The position numbers and the translations under genes are program-made. Under the pieces are notes generated by a model that was given only the letters and a program-made list of their open reading frames with translations, searched no databases and was not told where the DNA came from. Below are positions 6,899 through 12,184 of a stretch of DNA of 64,000 nt, in pieces; within the stretch, counting starts at the first letter, position 1, and the number at the start of each line of letters is the position of its first letter. The stretch spans positions 186,001-250,000 of the forward strand of contig NZ_LR027851.1 of assembly GCF_900607235.1 (NCBI RefSeq). The letters run 5' to 3'. This DNA comes from Olivibacter jilunii. GTDB lineage: Bacteria > Bacteroidota > Bacteroidia > Sphingobacteriales > Sphingobacteriaceae.

Positions 6899-7831
6899 TT
6901 AAAAAGAGACAGAAAGGTGAGTCATTAATCTGTTCCCCGCGTGAACGCGCTTATCTGCCAAGTGCTGATCAACCGGTAGCTGATAATTAACACCGAGAGC
7001 GTATCTGCCAATGTTTAACTCAAGCCCTGCAATGGCCGAGGTAAGGTTTCCTCCCGACTGGTTTATATAAAAGCGTCTATAAGATACATCCTGTTCCGCT
7101 TTTTCGTAACGTATTCCTATATTCGGCGCAATTCTAAGCTTTTGATCGATTAAGATTTTGTAGTAAAAAAGCGCATTACAGGTGAATTTATTTCCATAGC
7201 GATATTCGTATTGATTCTCGGTATTGAATTTATATAATAAGTTCAGGTTAAATCCCATGTCCATCAGACGCGCGTCGTAAGTTACGTTGAACGTGAAGTC
7301 TGTGCTGCCTGTTCCCAATTGGAAATTATTGGGCGAATCGGCGGAGACGCTTGCACGTTCGGAGTTATCATATTCGCCACTGGGCACTTTCACGCCTGCG
7401 CCCGCCCATAGGGAGTGGTTGAACAGCTTGAATTTGGTGGTGGTGTTACCCCCTTCAAAGATACGATAATAGGCCATTGCCGCAATATCGCCCAATCCGC
7501 TCTTTTCACCGGACTCTTCCATGGCATTAACCCGACGTTGGTTGAAATTGAACGGTAGAAAAGCCATCACCCTGACCCGATCACCAAAGTTGTAAGCGCC
7601 CCATAGCTCCACTATCTGATATGTTTCATCCGCAGTGAGTGGTGTATGCCGGCCCTCGGGGCCAAGATGCGTTTGCATGGTATTGTATTGATACCGCAAG
7701 CCAATAAAGCGTTTATTAAAGTCAGGCAAAATGCCCAGATAGTAGCTTCCGACACCACAGCCACAGATGTCACAAGCTTTTGCGGAAGCATAACATAAAA
7801 CCATAATACAAATCAAAAGTAGTTCTCTCAT
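6899..7831 (-). CDS. CDICGC-type outer-membrane beta-barrel protein, last gene of the MbnP/MbnH cluster
   Basis: The 310-residue protein has a signal peptide (MRELLLICIMVLCYASAKA). The mature N-terminus is CDICGCGVGSYYLGILPDFN, a compact three-Cys cluster. The rest alternates aromatic and polar residues in beta-barrel style and ends in a terminal Phe (HLSVSF), as outer-membrane proteins do. It starts 6 bases after the di-haem peroxidase gene, so the two are certainly co-transcribed. I know this protein type as an MbnP/MbnH-linked 'transporter' in Bacteroidota. The Cys cluster may bind a metal or anchor the protein; transport is inference. Confidence 0.75.
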   Translation of the reverse strand: MRELLLICIMVLCYASAKACDICGCGVGSYYLGILPDFNKRFIGLRYQYNTMQTHLGPEGRHTPLTADETYQIVELWGAYNFGDRVRVMAFLPFNFNQRRVNAMEESGEKSGLGDIAAMAYYRIFEGGNTTTKFKLFNHSLWAGAGVKVPSGEYDNSERASVSADSPNNFQLGTGSTDFTFNVTYDARLMDMGFNLNLLYKFNTENQYEYRYGNKFTCNALFYYKILIDQKLRIAPNIGIRYEKAEQDVSYRRFYINQSGGNLTSAIAGLELNIGRYALGVNYQLPVDQHLADKRVHAGNRLMTHLSVSF

Positions 7832-7837
7832 TTTTCT

Positions 7838-8905
7838 TTAATTGATAACAAAGCCACCGCCCGGTTCCGATAGCAGTTGTTTTTTTACAAAAGTTTCATC
7901 ATTCAATGTGTTAAGGAAATTCAATAAATCCTCCTTCTCGACATCTGTCATAGCAACCCCTCGTGTTCCGTCCATGTGCCGGAAACCCATGTCCAGATTT
8001 TCCGTATGCTGCATAAATTTCCGGTAATGGTCCAGTACACCGCTCAATGTATAAATACTGCCATCATGCATATAGGGAGCCGACCATTTTAAATTACGCA
8101 AGCTGGGTACCTTGAATTTTAGTTTATCTGTAGGGTTCAAGGTTACGGCATAGCGCCCCTCGTCACCTGCTGGATTTCGTCCCAGTCCATTGTCATGAAA
8201 ATCGCCATCAGTAAACAGCGGTTCGCTATGGCAGCGAGAACAATTGTTCTGGAAAAATAGGTAGCCACGCTGTTCCGACTCAGTAAAAGAGATACCCTTT
8301 TCCCCGCGGATCACCTGATCGTATTTGCTGTTATCACTAACTGCCATTAGCATAAACTGAGACAATGCTTTAGACATTTTCGCCGAAGTGATCTCTCTGC
8401 TTCCAAAGGCCTTTTCAAAAAGTGTAGGATAATCCGGGTGCGTTCTCAGCTTTACTAGTACGTTCGGCACCCTTTCACCCATCTCAACCGGGTTTTCAAT
8501 AGGAACAATGGAAAGGAGGTCGAGATTAAACACCCCACCATCCCAAAAAAACGCTTTGTTCCAAGCGAGATTCATGATAGGCATGGGATTACGGATACCC
8601 AATTGATCGTCAATCCCGTGACTAACATCGTGTCCGTGGTGGGTAAAATTGGCCGATTGAATATGGCAGCTGGCACAGGAAATCGTATTGTTGCGAGATA
8701 GACGTGGTTCATGGAACAGGCGCTTACCTAATTCAAAACCAGCCTCCGTTACTTCGTTTTCGGTGAATTTGTAAACAGGTTCGGGAAAATGTCCCGGTTT
8801 TAAAAAACCGGGAAATAATTCGTCAAGGTCTGGCAAGGTTTCATTCGCTTTTTTACAGGCATATGCAACAATTACCAGCCCGATTAAAACAATCCATTTT
8901 TTCAT
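7838..8905 (-). CDS. Di-haem cytochrome c peroxidase family protein, MbnH-like
   Basis: The 355-residue lipoprotein (lipobox VAYAC, Cys 17) has two haem-binding CXXCH motifs, CASCH at 77-81 and CSRCH at 222-226. A YMHDGS segment at 278-283 could give a distal Met or His ligand. This is the bacterial di-haem peroxidase/MauG superfamily. In the MbnP/MbnH pair of methanotrophs, the di-haem MbnH oxidises a Trp of MbnP to kynurenine and so creates a copper site. I chose the Met 8 codons inside the longer frame because it leaves a normal lipoprotein signal and an 8-base gap after the MbnP gene. The neighbouring genes strongly favour MbnH over ordinary CcpA. Confidence 0.88.
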   Translation of the reverse strand: MKKWIVLIGLVIVAYACKKANETLPDLDELFPGFLKPGHFPEPVYKFTENEVTEAGFELGKRLFHEPRLSRNNTISCASCHIQSANFTHHGHDVSHGIDDQLGIRNPMPIMNLAWNKAFFWDGGVFNLDLLSIVPIENPVEMGERVPNVLVKLRTHPDYPTLFEKAFGSREITSAKMSKALSQFMLMAVSDNSKYDQVIRGEKGISFTESEQRGYLFFQNNCSRCHSEPLFTDGDFHDNGLGRNPAGDEGRYAVTLNPTDKLKFKVPSLRNLKWSAPYMHDGSIYTLSGVLDHYRKFMQHTENLDMGFRHMDGTRGVAMTDVEKEDLLNFLNTLNDETFVKKQLLSEPGGGFVIN

Positions 8906-8912
8906 GGCTTTA

Positions 8913-9791
8913 TTATAATTGATCCTCACTGGTTACACCATTTTCAGTATGATCATGCGTAAACATATCCAGAAAGTTATCGGCGATGTATTGGCTGTAT
9001 TCGCTGAACATAACATTAGGGTGTTCAGCGATGCTGAAAGTATGTGTGCCGTTAAACACTTTCATCAGATCAACAAAAAGATGTACATTGCTGCGGTAGC
9101 CAGCCCTTACCTGCGCAACACCTGCTTTTGTTAAGTCTATCGTAATTGTCTTGATATTATTCAAGGTAGGCGCATTGTATCCGCCGAAGCCACCGATATG
9201 ATACTTAAACTGCTTCCGTCCTGTTGGGTCGCCCTGTTGATCATCTGATATTACCGGCGAATTGCCTTCAAACTTGAAGAAAATATAGCCACTGTTCCAC
9301 CCCCAGTACATGCCCTGCGTTTCGTGGTCACCTGTGGTCGGGTCAAGTACGCCTGTGCGTGCATCAAGCCCCATGGTACTGCGCGCACTATCCACGCCTA
9401 ATACAAAAGAAACCTGAGTATAATCCCCTTCGGGAACTTTCACTTTTGCAAAACGGGAGCCACGATTATCACCATATACCAAAAAATAACTTTCTTCAAC
9501 CGGATCCTGAGGCACGGCATATTCCGATCCATCCGCCTTTTTTACCTTAATATTACTAATATAATATTGTACACGGGATACAGTGAAGGCTTCACCTTTG
9601 GCGTTTATATACGGTTTATTGGTATTGTTGAATTGTAATCCGTAATCGCCCACTAGGTTATCGAACTCGATCGAAAAGTCACCCGTTTTCGTGCTATCGA
9701 TATCCGGAGATTCCACCTTCTTACAACTGACTACAGTTAGCATGAATAAGCCTATCCATGCCATCATTTTCCATTTTATTAAGTTTGTCAT
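8913..9791 (-). CDS. MbnP family copper-binding-type lipoprotein
   Basis: The 292-residue protein has a lipoprotein signal (VVSC, Cys 23) and the features of the MbnP family: FSIEFDNLVGDYGLQFNN near 39-56, FTVSRVQYYISNIKVK near 69-84, and MYWGWNSGYIFFKFEG at 161-176. In characterised MbnP one Trp becomes kynurenine and forms the copper site; Trp 163 and Trp 165 are candidates here. The C-terminal part has several His (AEHPNV, FTHDHTENG). The gene directly precedes the MbnH-like gene, as in other 'metallo-mystery' pairs. Copper binding is inferred from the family and not visible directly. The protein should sit on a periplasmic or outer-membrane face. Confidence 0.85.
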   Translation of the reverse strand: MTNLIKWKMMAWIGLFMLTVVSCKKVESPDIDSTKTGDFSIEFDNLVGDYGLQFNNTNKPYINAKGEAFTVSRVQYYISNIKVKKADGSEYAVPQDPVEESYFLVYGDNRGSRFAKVKVPEGDYTQVSFVLGVDSARSTMGLDARTGVLDPTTGDHETQGMYWGWNSGYIFFKFEGNSPVISDDQQGDPTGRKQFKYHIGGFGGYNAPTLNNIKTITIDLTKAGVAQVRAGYRSNVHLFVDLMKVFNGTHTFSIAEHPNVMFSEYSQYIADNFLDMFTHDHTENGVTSEDQL

Positions 9792-9956
9792 TTTCTATTA
9801 TTAAGTTTTTTGTTAAAAATCGATTCTTTCAATAGCGTATAGGCATAGGAGTTCAATGCCAACGTAAATAGGCATGAATTATCCACGTGCAGGCAATAGG
9901 CTTGTACAACCGGTATAACCTACATAATGCTTTCGAAAAATATAAATTGAGGAATG

Positions 9957-10331
9957 TTAGATTATTTTAGGAGGTAAAAATGGCTTGTTTGTATAGAGAT
10001 ATCTATAGAGGATGCCGTAGGACGGATGGTTCTCCGATAGATGTACCGGAAATGGACTTTGCAAATGGAGCATCTCTGAAACCACCATCGTAACTTCCGC
10101 CTTAGAGGTAGCGGCACTCCGCGAACCTTTTTCAGACTCTTCCAATTTCTTCAGTTTTTTCATCAGGACACACTGTCCGTTACACTGCATCTCAGGTTTA
10201 TCCCGATTTTCACATAGAGCCCGGATAATATAATTTCTGTTAACCTGAAACCAAGTCAATACACCAAGACTTCCAAGACATTGAAATGTCAATGTAAATA
10301 ATAACAGATAGACCAGTGTTTTTCTGACCAT
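9957..10331 (-). CDS. Small Cys-motif membrane/periplasmic protein (CENR family member A)
   Basis: The 124-residue protein starts with one hydrophobic helix (LVYLLLFTLTFQCLGSLGVLTWF, residues about 6-28), followed directly by NRNYIIRALCENRDKPEMQC and NGQCVLMKKLKK. Cys 40, Cys 50 and Cys 54 form a C-x9-C-x3-C pattern. A charged linker and a short hydrophobic tail complete it. The protein is paralogous to the next gene upstream, with the same length and motif. I know similar short hypothetical proteins in Bacteroidota but no assigned function. The position ahead of the MbnP-MbnH-porin genes on the same strand suggests metal binding or export in the same pathway. This is inference. Confidence 0.7.
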   Translation of the reverse strand: MVRKTLVYLLLFTLTFQCLGSLGVLTWFQVNRNYIIRALCENRDKPEMQCNGQCVLMKKLKKLEESEKGSRSAATSKAEVTMVVSEMLHLQSPFPVHLSENHPSYGILYRYLYTNKPFLPPKII

Positions 10332-10458
10332 TTCCAGTGTGTAAAGCGATTTCGATCAGCCGAATTGCAGCTGACGAAAAAATATAAATAAACAAAAAGC
10401 TACGCAGCCATGTAAAGGATGGTTGTCTTTATACATGGACGAATAAAAGAAAAATTGT

Positions 10459-10833
10459 TTAGCTGAGAGGAGGGTGGAAGATGGACCCCAGCACGGGGGG
10501 CTGGTATAGCAGATTTCCCCCATAGATGAAGGTCTCCTTTTTGACGGTGGTGACAGGATGTTTCACTGTTCTGAAATCAATCGGAGCTGCAAGCACCTGA
10601 AAATCCTTTAATTTTAGCTCAGGGTTTTTGTTTTCCCGTTCGCGTTCTTTCTTCAGCTTTTTCATCAAAAGACATGTCCCCGCACAAGACGGAGCCATAG
10701 CGGTGTTTCTATTCTCACACAGATTATTAGCTATATAGGATCGGTTGGCATAAAATGCAGTCATGATGAATAGTCCGGCGCAGCTTTGCAATAGCACAAT
10801 TGGAATTAAAAATATAATGGCCAGACGTTTCAA
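10459..10833 (-). CDS. Small Cys-motif membrane/periplasmic protein (CENR family member B)
   Basis: This paralogue of the preceding protein has a hydrophobic N-terminal helix, then ANRSYIANNLCENRN, SCAGTCLLMKKLKK and a charged linker. Cys 39, Cys 50 and Cys 54 match the other copy. The open frame extends upstream to an ATG at 10923, but those 30 extra codons do not look like a signal sequence. A TTG start at 10833 gives exactly 124 residues, the length of the paralogue, and aligns the two membrane helices. A TATATTCG box (10862-10869, minus strand) would also place the transcript start inside the longer version. First gene of the likely five-gene copper-linked cluster. Confidence 0.7.
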   Translation of the reverse strand: MKRLAIIFLIPIVLLQSCAGLFIMTAFYANRSYIANNLCENRNTAMAPSCAGTCLLMKKLKKERERENKNPELKLKDFQVLAAPIDFRTVKHPVTTVKKETFIYGGNLLYQPPVLGSIFHPPLS

Positions 10834-10983: not shown

Positions 10984-12006
10984 TTAAGTTTCCTTTACCC
11001 CATATCGCTCTAATGCTTTTACTAGTTGCTGCTTTATCTGTTTTACCAAGATTTTCGGTCCTAATACCTTTATTTTAGCGCCAAAACCCAATAATTCCCG
11101 CTCGAGCTCAAAATTTAAAATTACCTTGATACTAAAGATCTTACCGTTATCTTGGTCGCTTAATAGTTTTTGCGTGTGATGCAAGGGTTTAGTTATAACA
11201 TAAGGTGCATTATCTGCATCGATCCAAAAAACTACTTCGCACTCCCGTTGGTCGGGTGTTTTCGTTACACCAATACAGTTATCATAATAGGTTGCCAGAT
11301 CCAATGTTCTATTTTCCCTATACGGTTCTTCGCGTTCTTCCACGGCTTGTATCCGATCCAGAGCCAAGTTCATAATGTGCGCATTCCGTTTATGCGGCAT
11401 GCCCAATACAAACCAGCGGTTGCGATATTCTTTCAATAGGTACCCACTGAAGCAGAAGCTACTAGCCTCCCGGGCTTTAAAGGATTGATAGGTAATACAG
11501 ATGGTTTTCTTGGCTGCAATCGCTTTACGTATTACCTCTAGCCATTCCAGACCCTTCAGGTCATCGTTCTTTTCAAAATCAATTACAGGCGTACTTTGCG
11601 TTTTTTGCGAATAAATCTTGTCTTCCAATTTACTTACCAGTTCGTTCAGATCGGTAAAATGGTTCAAGCCCTTAAATTGTTTTAATAATCCGGACACTTC
11701 ACTCAACACTTCCATGTCCTGTTGATTCAGCGGGATACTGGTAATACTATAATTCTTGTCGCTGTAGGTGTAATATTTCTTATCAACCACTACAATAGGT
11801 GCTTCGTAACCTAACTTGTTACTGCGCATCATGGCTATATCCGCCTGCACGGTACGACGACTTACGCCCGTATCGATTCCATGGTATTCATAAATGGCAT
11901 CGCTACAAGCTTCAATCAAGTCTTCAAGTGTCCACTTTTTAAAACGATTTTGGAGACATTGGTCGATCGTGCGGTAGCGAATCAGGGCGTTGCGGTTAAT
12001 CGGCAT
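10984..12006 (-). CDS. WYL-domain transcriptional regulator (YafY type)
   Basis: The 340-residue protein has an N-terminal winged-helix region (RYRTIDQCLQNRFKKWTLED through GVSRRTVQADIAMMRS, residues about 8-75). A central WYL-type domain follows (KKTICITYQSFKAREASSF, then YRNRWFVLGMPHKR near 230), in which the W-Y-L triad reads W-F-V. A C-terminal WCX-like domain is near 260-335. I chose the Met at 12006 over the frame's first Met 41 codons upstream, because the extra stretch has no family similarity. The gene is divergent from rtcB across a short intergenic region. This pairing resembles other RNA-repair loci where a ligand-sensing regulator sits beside rtcB. RNA or nucleotide sensing is inference. 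Confidence 0.82.
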   Translation of the reverse strand: MPINRNALIRYRTIDQCLQNRFKKWTLEDLIEACSDAIYEYHGIDTGVSRRTVQADIAMMRSNKLGYEAPIVVVDKKYYTYSDKNYSITSIPLNQQDMEVLSEVSGLLKQFKGLNHFTDLNELVSKLEDKIYSQKTQSTPVIDFEKNDDLKGLEWLEVIRKAIAAKKTICITYQSFKAREASSFCFSGYLLKEYRNRWFVLGMPHKRNAHIMNLALDRIQAVEEREEPYRENRTLDLATYYDNCIGVTKTPDQRECEVVFWIDADNAPYVITKPLHHTQKLLSDQDNGKIFSIKVILNFELERELLGFGAKIKVLGPKILVKQIKQQLVKALERYGVKET

Positions 12007-12184
12007 AGTATCAGCAAATATTTTGAATGAATTTATATAATATTTCTTTACTGCGCAAATAGGTTGCGTACTTGTTATTTCTCTTTGTATTATCAAAAGC
12101 AGAGACATTTGATGAAACTCCGTTTCCAAACCGGAAAAGCGAGATTAGTTTAGAGACTTTAAGCATACAATAAAATTAATAGAT

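Follow-up and report, generated by a model that had tools for sequence, protein, structure and literature searches.

The locus described here raises the question of what two small cysteine-containing proteins do ahead of an MbnP/MbnH gene pair. It lies in a 64,000-nucleotide stretch of the Olivibacter jilunii genome (RefSeq assembly GCF_900607235.1, contig NZ_LR027851.1, positions 186,001 to 250,000, forward strand), hereafter the window, in which five open reading frames (ORFs), all on the minus strand, were confirmed in the order CENR1, CENR2, MbnP, an MbnH-like di-heme protein, and an outer-membrane barrel. A preliminary description of the sequence had taken the two CENR proteins to deliver, bind, or export the metal of the genes behind them. 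Such a role is disfavored by the many other genes found downstream of CENR, by the repetition of CENR within gene strings, and by a C-terminal Pro-Pro pair at a fixed place. Rather, we propose, with a probability of about 0.7, that CENR1 and CENR2 act in cis as copper-sensing leader ORFs, with an arrest motif of their own, and are not copper carriers. Their features are as follows.

10459..10833, minus strand: CENR1, proposed first leader ORF; 124 amino acids, presumed TTG start, one N-terminal hydrophobic helix, Cys motif, C-terminal I-F-H-P-P-L-S
10672..10719, minus strand: CENR1 Cys motif C-E-N-R-x7-C-A-G-T-C, putative copper sensor, with Cys, Asn, and Gly unchanged across the alignment
10468..10482, minus strand: CENR1 I-F-H-P-P (P121-P122), putative ribosome-arrest motif, two residues ahead of the stop
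10332..10458, minus strand: gap between CENR1 and CENR2, 127 bp
9957..10331, minus strand: CENR2, proposed second leader ORF; 124 amino acids, ATG start, one N-terminal hydrophobic helix, Cys motif, C-terminal F-L-P-P-K-I-I
10170..10214, minus strand: CENR2 Cys motif C-E-N-R-x6-C-N-G-Q-C, putative copper sensor
9969..9980, minus strand: CENR2 F-L-P-P (P120-P121), putative arrest motif, three residues ahead of the stop
9792..9956, minus strand: gap between CENR2 and MbnP, 165 bp, proposed attenuation site

The TTG start of CENR1 was chosen because it matches the N terminus of the CENR family. The two proteins share 27% identity, and the distance from the Arg of CENR to the next Cys, first given as five or six residues, is six in CENR2 and seven in CENR1.

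A conserved Pro-Pro ending at a fixed distance from the Cys motif

Alignment of 30 members, whose ORFs were hand-picked from a set found by a pattern covering only the Cys region, left positions C40, N42, C50, G52, C54, P120, and P121 invariant. The Pro-Pro pair near the C terminus is thus a second conserved element, which the preliminary description had overlooked, and all 44 distinct ORF tails of the Cys-pattern set end in it. CENR ORFs, 101 in number, were recovered from 88 of 89 loci (locus L161, a cut contig, yielded none); their motif reads C-x-N-x(7-8)-C-x-G-x-C, with seven residues in the first spacer of 99 ORFs and eight in that of 2, and Pro-Pro falls within the last 15 residues of all 101. 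At the same loci, such an ending was found in 14 of 1050 other ORFs, and in 3 of 227 when these were limited to 160 amino acids or fewer, one of the three being a diverged CENR. At L035:8882-9313 (minus strand), a diverged CENR-type ORF forms a tandem with a typical CENR; it has another residue for the Asn of C-x-N but retains CxGxC and the Pro-Pro ending.

Many of these loci come from two genera, for which a set of 48 representatives (<50% identity, reduced from 160 sequences) and the phylum-wide set correct in part only. All 48 representatives have Pro-Pro within the last 15 residues, while in 1000 shuffles of their tails an average of 3.1, and at most 9, of the 48 had the pair. The consensus ending is I-F-H-P-P followed by 2 to 12 further residues; ahead of the pair stand Phe (38/48) and one of His, Arg, Lys, or Gln (43/48), and not Arg-Ala. 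In the phylum-wide sample Pro-Pro is present in 30 of 30 members, the search profile having included it; the other sets were not selected by the pair. Patterns of the Cys region served for the scan of named genomes, although its best 80 loci were ranked with a full-length protein, and 52 of the 71 family-sample matches end before query residue 100.

Among the 48 representatives, the distance from the last Cys to Pro-Pro is 62 to 70 residues, with a standard deviation of 1.8. Over 261 sampled pairs this linker averages 21% identity, and the part comprising the N terminus and Cys motif averages 41%. A linker fixed in length without being fixed in sequence is as expected where the reach of a nascent chain matters. 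The predicted model of CENR2 has high confidence for residues 1 to 70, including its one N-terminal helix (residues 2 to 30), and low confidence for residues 71 to 124, with one uncertain helix at residues 106 to 115.

A stable copper-binding membrane protein would also show a well-conserved, confidently modeled three-Cys motif and adjoining helix, and to this extent the model counts against a leader function. CENR proteins could then be membrane-anchored copper chaperones or assembly factors for the metal sites of MbnP, TonB receptors, and SCO1, the Pro-Pro pair binding a partner, and the recurrence of copper-type neighbors described below would suit them as well. We consider this unlikely, as the tail of CENR is neither conserved nor confidently folded and yet is fixed in length.

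Spread of the CENR family

Of 61 genomes from the same taxonomic family, 52 hold relatives of CENR2, and CENR was detected by an alignment-based search in 119 of 296 sampled Bacteroidota genomes, belonging to 58 of 140 genera. In a scan of named genomes, which used patterns of the Cys region, at least 562 relatives were confirmed among 594 candidate stretches; the 80 loci ranked best by tblastn with the full-length protein include Mucilaginibacter, Pedobacter, Rufibacter, Pontibacter, Flavobacterium, Spirosoma, and Chitinophaga. Because the O. jilunii genome itself holds six copies and the family is spread over the Bacteroidota, the Cys pattern is beyond chance, and the likeness first noticed between CENR1 and CENR2 is real.

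Neither CENR1 nor CENR2 matched a Pfam or NCBIfam family in scans of the window proteins, and the 30 aligned members gave no convincing Pfam family among 27 weak ones (best E value, 0.012). Quinohemoprotein amine dehydrogenase gamma, weakly matched by 5 of the 30 members (best E value, 0.0019), was set aside because the window protein did not match it. No publication was recognized as naming the family, in a check that left aside the supplementary lists of PMC9973294, and CENR may already be listed there, without a name, among the CutF-like proteins.

Position of CENR ahead of copper-type genes

ORFs were called by a simple rule rather than by a trained gene finder, and neighbor counts are therefore approximate; the next gene was taken to be an ORF of 90 amino acids or more, or another CENR. 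By this count all 100 next genes share the strand of their CENR and follow it after a gap with a median of 136 bp (middle half, 100 to 180 bp; range, 21 to 811 bp). The first gene other than CENR (n = 95, clusters named from one representative each) encodes a TonB receptor in 55 cases, MbnP in 17, a small lipoprotein in 10, a YtkA-like protein in 7, a barrel in 4, and something else in 2, and genes for PepSY_TM, SCO1, and MbnH-like proteins follow further behind. The O. jilunii genome repeats this picture: a CENR pair (C2) stands ahead of genes for YtkA-like, SCO1, cytochrome c, and superoxide dismutase proteins, another copy (C5) stands ahead of a TonB receptor and PepSY_TM, and a third (C6) lies behind a P-type ATPase gene and ahead of a YtkA-like gene and a TonB receptor. 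The small lipoproteins that can directly follow CENR (L118:8557-8985 and 22 relatives) have conserved His/Met stretches (HDxVM, W-M-H); one scanned member had no Pfam or NCBIfam match, and the family is perhaps copper binding.

Among the 89 loci, CENR recurs on one strand as CENR-gene(s)-CENR in six strings, a count that excludes a pair separated by more than 6 kb and another whose members lie on opposite strands, and tandem pairs occur at five loci, including the window. Repetition of this kind is expected of a cis element, whereas a diffusible carrier would need no copy before each gene. The several copies per genome before different genes, and the length of the gap behind CENR, likewise speak against a chaperone.

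The association with MbnP made in the preliminary description holds. A CENR accompanies, within 10 kb, 25 of the 45 MbnP hits of the family sample and at least 41 of the 101 of the phylum sample, the latter a lower bound obtained with 150 CENR matches; all 25 and all 41 of these CENR lie upstream on the same strand, 36 of the 41 within 450 bp. In the other direction, 29 of 71 family-sample CENR hits are within 10 kb of MbnP and 42 are not. Of the concern that CENR might occur mostly without MbnP/MbnH or metal genes, the part concerning MbnP is thus correct, but copper-type genes do adjoin. That CENR precedes several kinds of copper-type genes also indicates that it is not a subunit of MbnP.

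In one genome (L238:1387-1863, plus strand), the slot directly before MbnP held elsewhere by CENR is taken by a DUF2946-type ORF ending in RGPPGLLA, and by eye an MbnH-like ORF follows MbnP. DUF2946 was found in 8 of the 296 phylum-sample genomes, in 5 of them over the cut-off. This replacement, a single case, is the strongest comparative hint that the two kinds of ORF have equal function, and a chaperone would not be expected to be exchangeable for such an ORF.

Comparison with known leader ORFs

The comparisons that follow draw on parts of the cited articles. CruR of Bordetella pertussis (bp2923, DUF2946) is encoded by an upstream ORF whose CXXC motif is separated by 45 residues from RAPP, after which come three further residues; relief of its arrest by copper leads to Rho-dependent termination before a TonB receptor gene (PMC9426467; Roy et al. 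2022). Relatives of cruR precede genes for TonB receptors, PepSY_TM, Sco, and MbnPH-like proteins, the gap behind cruR in Bordetella is 162 bp, and the authors propose cytoplasmic sensing (PMC9426467). The arrest has been shown in vitro, with Pro codons in the P and A sites (PMC12992588, EMBO J 2025).

CENR resembles CruR in the fixed distance from metal motif to Pro-Pro (62 to 70 versus 45 residues), in its place directly before copper-type genes with a long gap (165 bp behind CENR2, close to that of Bordetella), and in a set of downstream genes that overlaps that reported behind cruR. It differs in having C-x-N-x(7-8)-C-x-G-x-C in place of CXXC and an IFHPP-type ending in place of RAPP, and in belonging to the Bacteroidota, while CruR is mainly found in Proteobacteria. 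It also lacks a match to the DUF2946 profile, which found none elsewhere in the O. jilunii genome either, and DUF2946 was absent from the 25 families shown of the 27 weakly matched by the 30 members. CENR is not a member of the DUF2946/CruR family but is best read, by analogy, as working like CruR, on the same plan in other letters.

Arrest peptides of the RAPP/RGPP type share with CENR a Pro-Pro near the C terminus and a place upstream as small, localized proteins, but have Arg-Ala or Arg-Gly ahead of the pair (PMC12992588). The same article reports that leaders of this type for copper-related genes are missing in the Bacteroidota, where CENR could take their place. The phylum is already known to have different proline endings, in leader ORFs that end in N-A-P or N-S-P and precede secDF and secA (PMC10987492, Nat Commun 2024); these have a single Pro at the stop and sec genes behind them, and the sections of the article drawn on here mention no Cys motif.

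CutF offers a model in the opposite direction, in that copper is reported to raise the downstream product, through an RNA stem-loop, and not to lower it (PMC9973294; Ozturk et al. 2023). Bacteroidota make up 19% (40% when normalized) of the CutF-like list of that article, and its list D holds many Bacteroidota proteins (PMC9973294). CENR fits most filters of that list: at 124 amino acids, both window proteins are under 150 with Pro-Pro within 15 C-terminal residues, and the same-strand downstream gene lies within 1000 nucleotides in all 100 cases counted. A further filter concerns an N-terminal signal peptide; what the CENR2 model shows there is one helix, at residues 2 to 30. CENR might then act as CutF does, with copper prolonging the stall and switching genes for detoxification on. 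This is a less likely alternative than a chaperone, as CENR stands before genes for uptake and assembly (TonB receptor, PepSY_TM, SCO1, MbnP), similar to those turned off by CruR in the presence of copper, and the gaps match that of cruR in size and lack excess structure. The last point comes from a folding test of gaps of 60 to 300 bp (first 200 bases, against dinucleotide shuffles), in which the mean z score was -2.16 for CENR gaps (n = 88) and -2.22 for 120 random other same-strand gaps (Mann-Whitney P = 0.72). Sites like intrinsic terminators were seen in 2 of the 88 CENR gaps and 11 of the 120 controls. These folding results and terminator counts support neither an intrinsic attenuator nor a CutF-like hairpin behind CENR.

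Proposed mechanism and points against it

In the leader mechanism that we propose, the N-terminal helix would direct the nascent chain to the inner membrane. With a ribosome at (I)-F-x-P-P, about 65 residues would separate the peptidyl-transfer center from the last Cys, and the motif would emerge at the periplasmic side; about 65 residues is close to the length needed to span the ribosome tunnel and the translocon. The Cys site would thereby just arrive in the periplasm; the shorter stretch of 45 residues in CruR fits the cytoplasmic sensing proposed by its authors. At low copper the ribosome would stall at Pro-Pro and the downstream genes would stay expressed, these being MbnP, the MbnH-like protein, and the barrel in the window and the TonB receptor with PepSY_TM, or the YtkA-like protein with SCO1, elsewhere. 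Copper at the Cys site would fold or pull the chain and so end the arrest, after which expression would break off within the long gap, the simplest agent being Rho, which acts in CruR. A Rho gene is present in the O. jilunii genome. Because folding gave no support for a special RNA structure in the gaps, Rho, which needs none, or a translational step is left to effect this stop. Since CENR precedes genes for uptake and assembly, control in the direction of CruR is the more probable one. Copper as the ligand is suggested by the neighboring genes and by the parallel with CruR.

Several observations weigh against the leader mechanism, in addition to the confidently modeled Cys part. CENR and MbnP stand apart in 12 of the 52 genomes that have both, among the CENR matches listed, and none of 16 examined MbnP loci lacking CENR had an ORF of 60 amino acids or more with a Pro-Pro ending within 900 bp in front. 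Of 101 genes preceding a CENR, 81 share its strand, 18 of them at a distance under 50 bp; CENR clearly comes first in the transcript only in the other 20 cases, where the preceding gene is on the opposite strand. The gaps behind CENR, as given above, are no more structured than others. The arrest of Bacteroidota ribosomes by IFHPP is an assumption, literal RAPP or RGPP being absent from CENR.

A further point concerns the ligand. Two TonB receptors scanned from behind CENR favor heme over copper models (119.9 versus 57.6 bits and 135.7 versus 125.3 bits), with all scores of both below the cut-off, and TonB receptors are the commonest neighbors of CENR. This would suit a leader whose signal is zinc, iron, heme, redox state, or, as in SecM, export itself. 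Sensors of the SecM type, however, stand ahead of sec genes, and the MbnP, MbnH-like, SCO1, and PepSY_TM genes point to copper, as does the copper response of CruR, whose neighbors overlap. A signal other than copper is therefore, in our view, the least probable of the alternatives.

MbnP, the MbnH-like protein, and the barrel

The remaining genes of the locus are as follows.

8913..9791, minus strand: MbnP lipoprotein with W163-G-W165; PF20243, fold of 7l6g
7838..8905, minus strand: MbnH/MauG-like di-heme protein with two CxxCH motifs, ATG start; PF03150, TIGR04039, 6e1c
6899..7831, minus strand: outer-membrane barrel, mature part probably starting CDICGC; PF13557, 33.3 bits (cut-off, 22)

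With the chosen starts, these three genes are separated by 7 and 6 bp, which bears out the tight packing first described; an alternative upstream GTG start at 8929 is possible for the MbnH-like gene. A WYL/WCX-domain regulator (window positions 10984-12129, minus strand) lies 150 bp upstream of CENR1 on the same strand, and it is possible that it takes part in the CENR-MbnP operon.

The identity of MbnP is confirmed by Pfam (PF20243, 172 bits; cut-off, 27) and by its predicted fold, although it falls below the cut-off of NCBIfam TIGR04052 (40.6 versus 140 bits). The predicted model has a mean predicted local distance difference test score of 86.7, and a fold search gave six matches below an E value of 0.001, all of them chains of Methylosinus MbnP 7l6g (best E value, 8e-12; TM-score, 0.52 to 0.55), to which the WxW motif aligns. 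The di-heme protein matches PF03150 with 174.3 bits and structure 6e1c with an E value of 1.8e-41; TIGR04039 is its best NCBIfam family at 214.1 bits, short of the cut-off of 362.85, and by this curated limit it is only MbnH-like. The window thus resembles the Methylosinus pair in the MbnP domain, the WxW motif, the fold, and the di-heme gene directly behind, and differs in sequence, with 14 to 15% identity between the MbnP proteins. MbnH acts on MbnP to form a kynurenine-dependent copper site, and the Trp residues for it are present here by sequence. In the barrel, which the preliminary description proposed to pass the metal across the outer membrane, as it may, C20, D21, C23, G24, and C25 are invariant or almost so among 16 sequences. 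ORFs directly before two of the 16 examined MbnP genes lacking CENR (L221:2252-2656 and L228:2177-2626, both minus strand) presumably resemble a peptide-release (ArfB-like) protein.

A second candidate family and its implications

DUF6660 (PF20365), present in 32 of the 61 genomes of the same taxonomic family, is likewise a Cys-rich Bacteroidota family with a Pro-Pro ending, which at 30 loci (L069-L098) reads W-Q-P-P 29 times and W-L-P-P once. Of these 30 loci, 20 matched a strict Cys pattern and were parsed, the other 10 being left out. DUF6660 too is placed before metal-type genes, which at the 20 parsed loci were judged by eye to be CusA/CzcA-like in 17 and TonB-receptor-like in 3. In contrast to CENR, its motif is of the type CSPFCxCxCC, and the Cys cluster at the parsed loci lies 40 to 45 residues from Pro-Pro, versus 62 to 70 in CENR. 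DUF6660 is probably a second family of metal-sensing leader ORFs in the Bacteroidota, judging from these sequence features. That two families without visible similarity have nearly the same ending in one phylum suggests a shared arrest ending.

A wider reading, which we hold tentatively and at a little under even odds, is that the Bacteroidota have an arrest ending of their own, (I/V)-(F/W)-(H/R/Q)-P-P immediately ahead of the stop, in at least two unrelated families of metal-sensing leaders. CENR, with periplasmic reach, would stand before copper uptake and assembly genes and DUF6660 before efflux genes, and nascent-chain sensing would be a main form of copper control in the phylum, replacing leaders of the RAPP type. 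If the leader function of CENR is true, a widespread and so far unnamed family with the look of metal-binding proteins would turn out to form a class of copper switches coupled to translation, whose ending is not among the arrest motifs described in the parts of the cited work used here. It would give the Bacteroidota a route to control TonB receptors, SCO1, and MbnP/MbnH, and copper regulons of this phylum would become findable from sequence alone.

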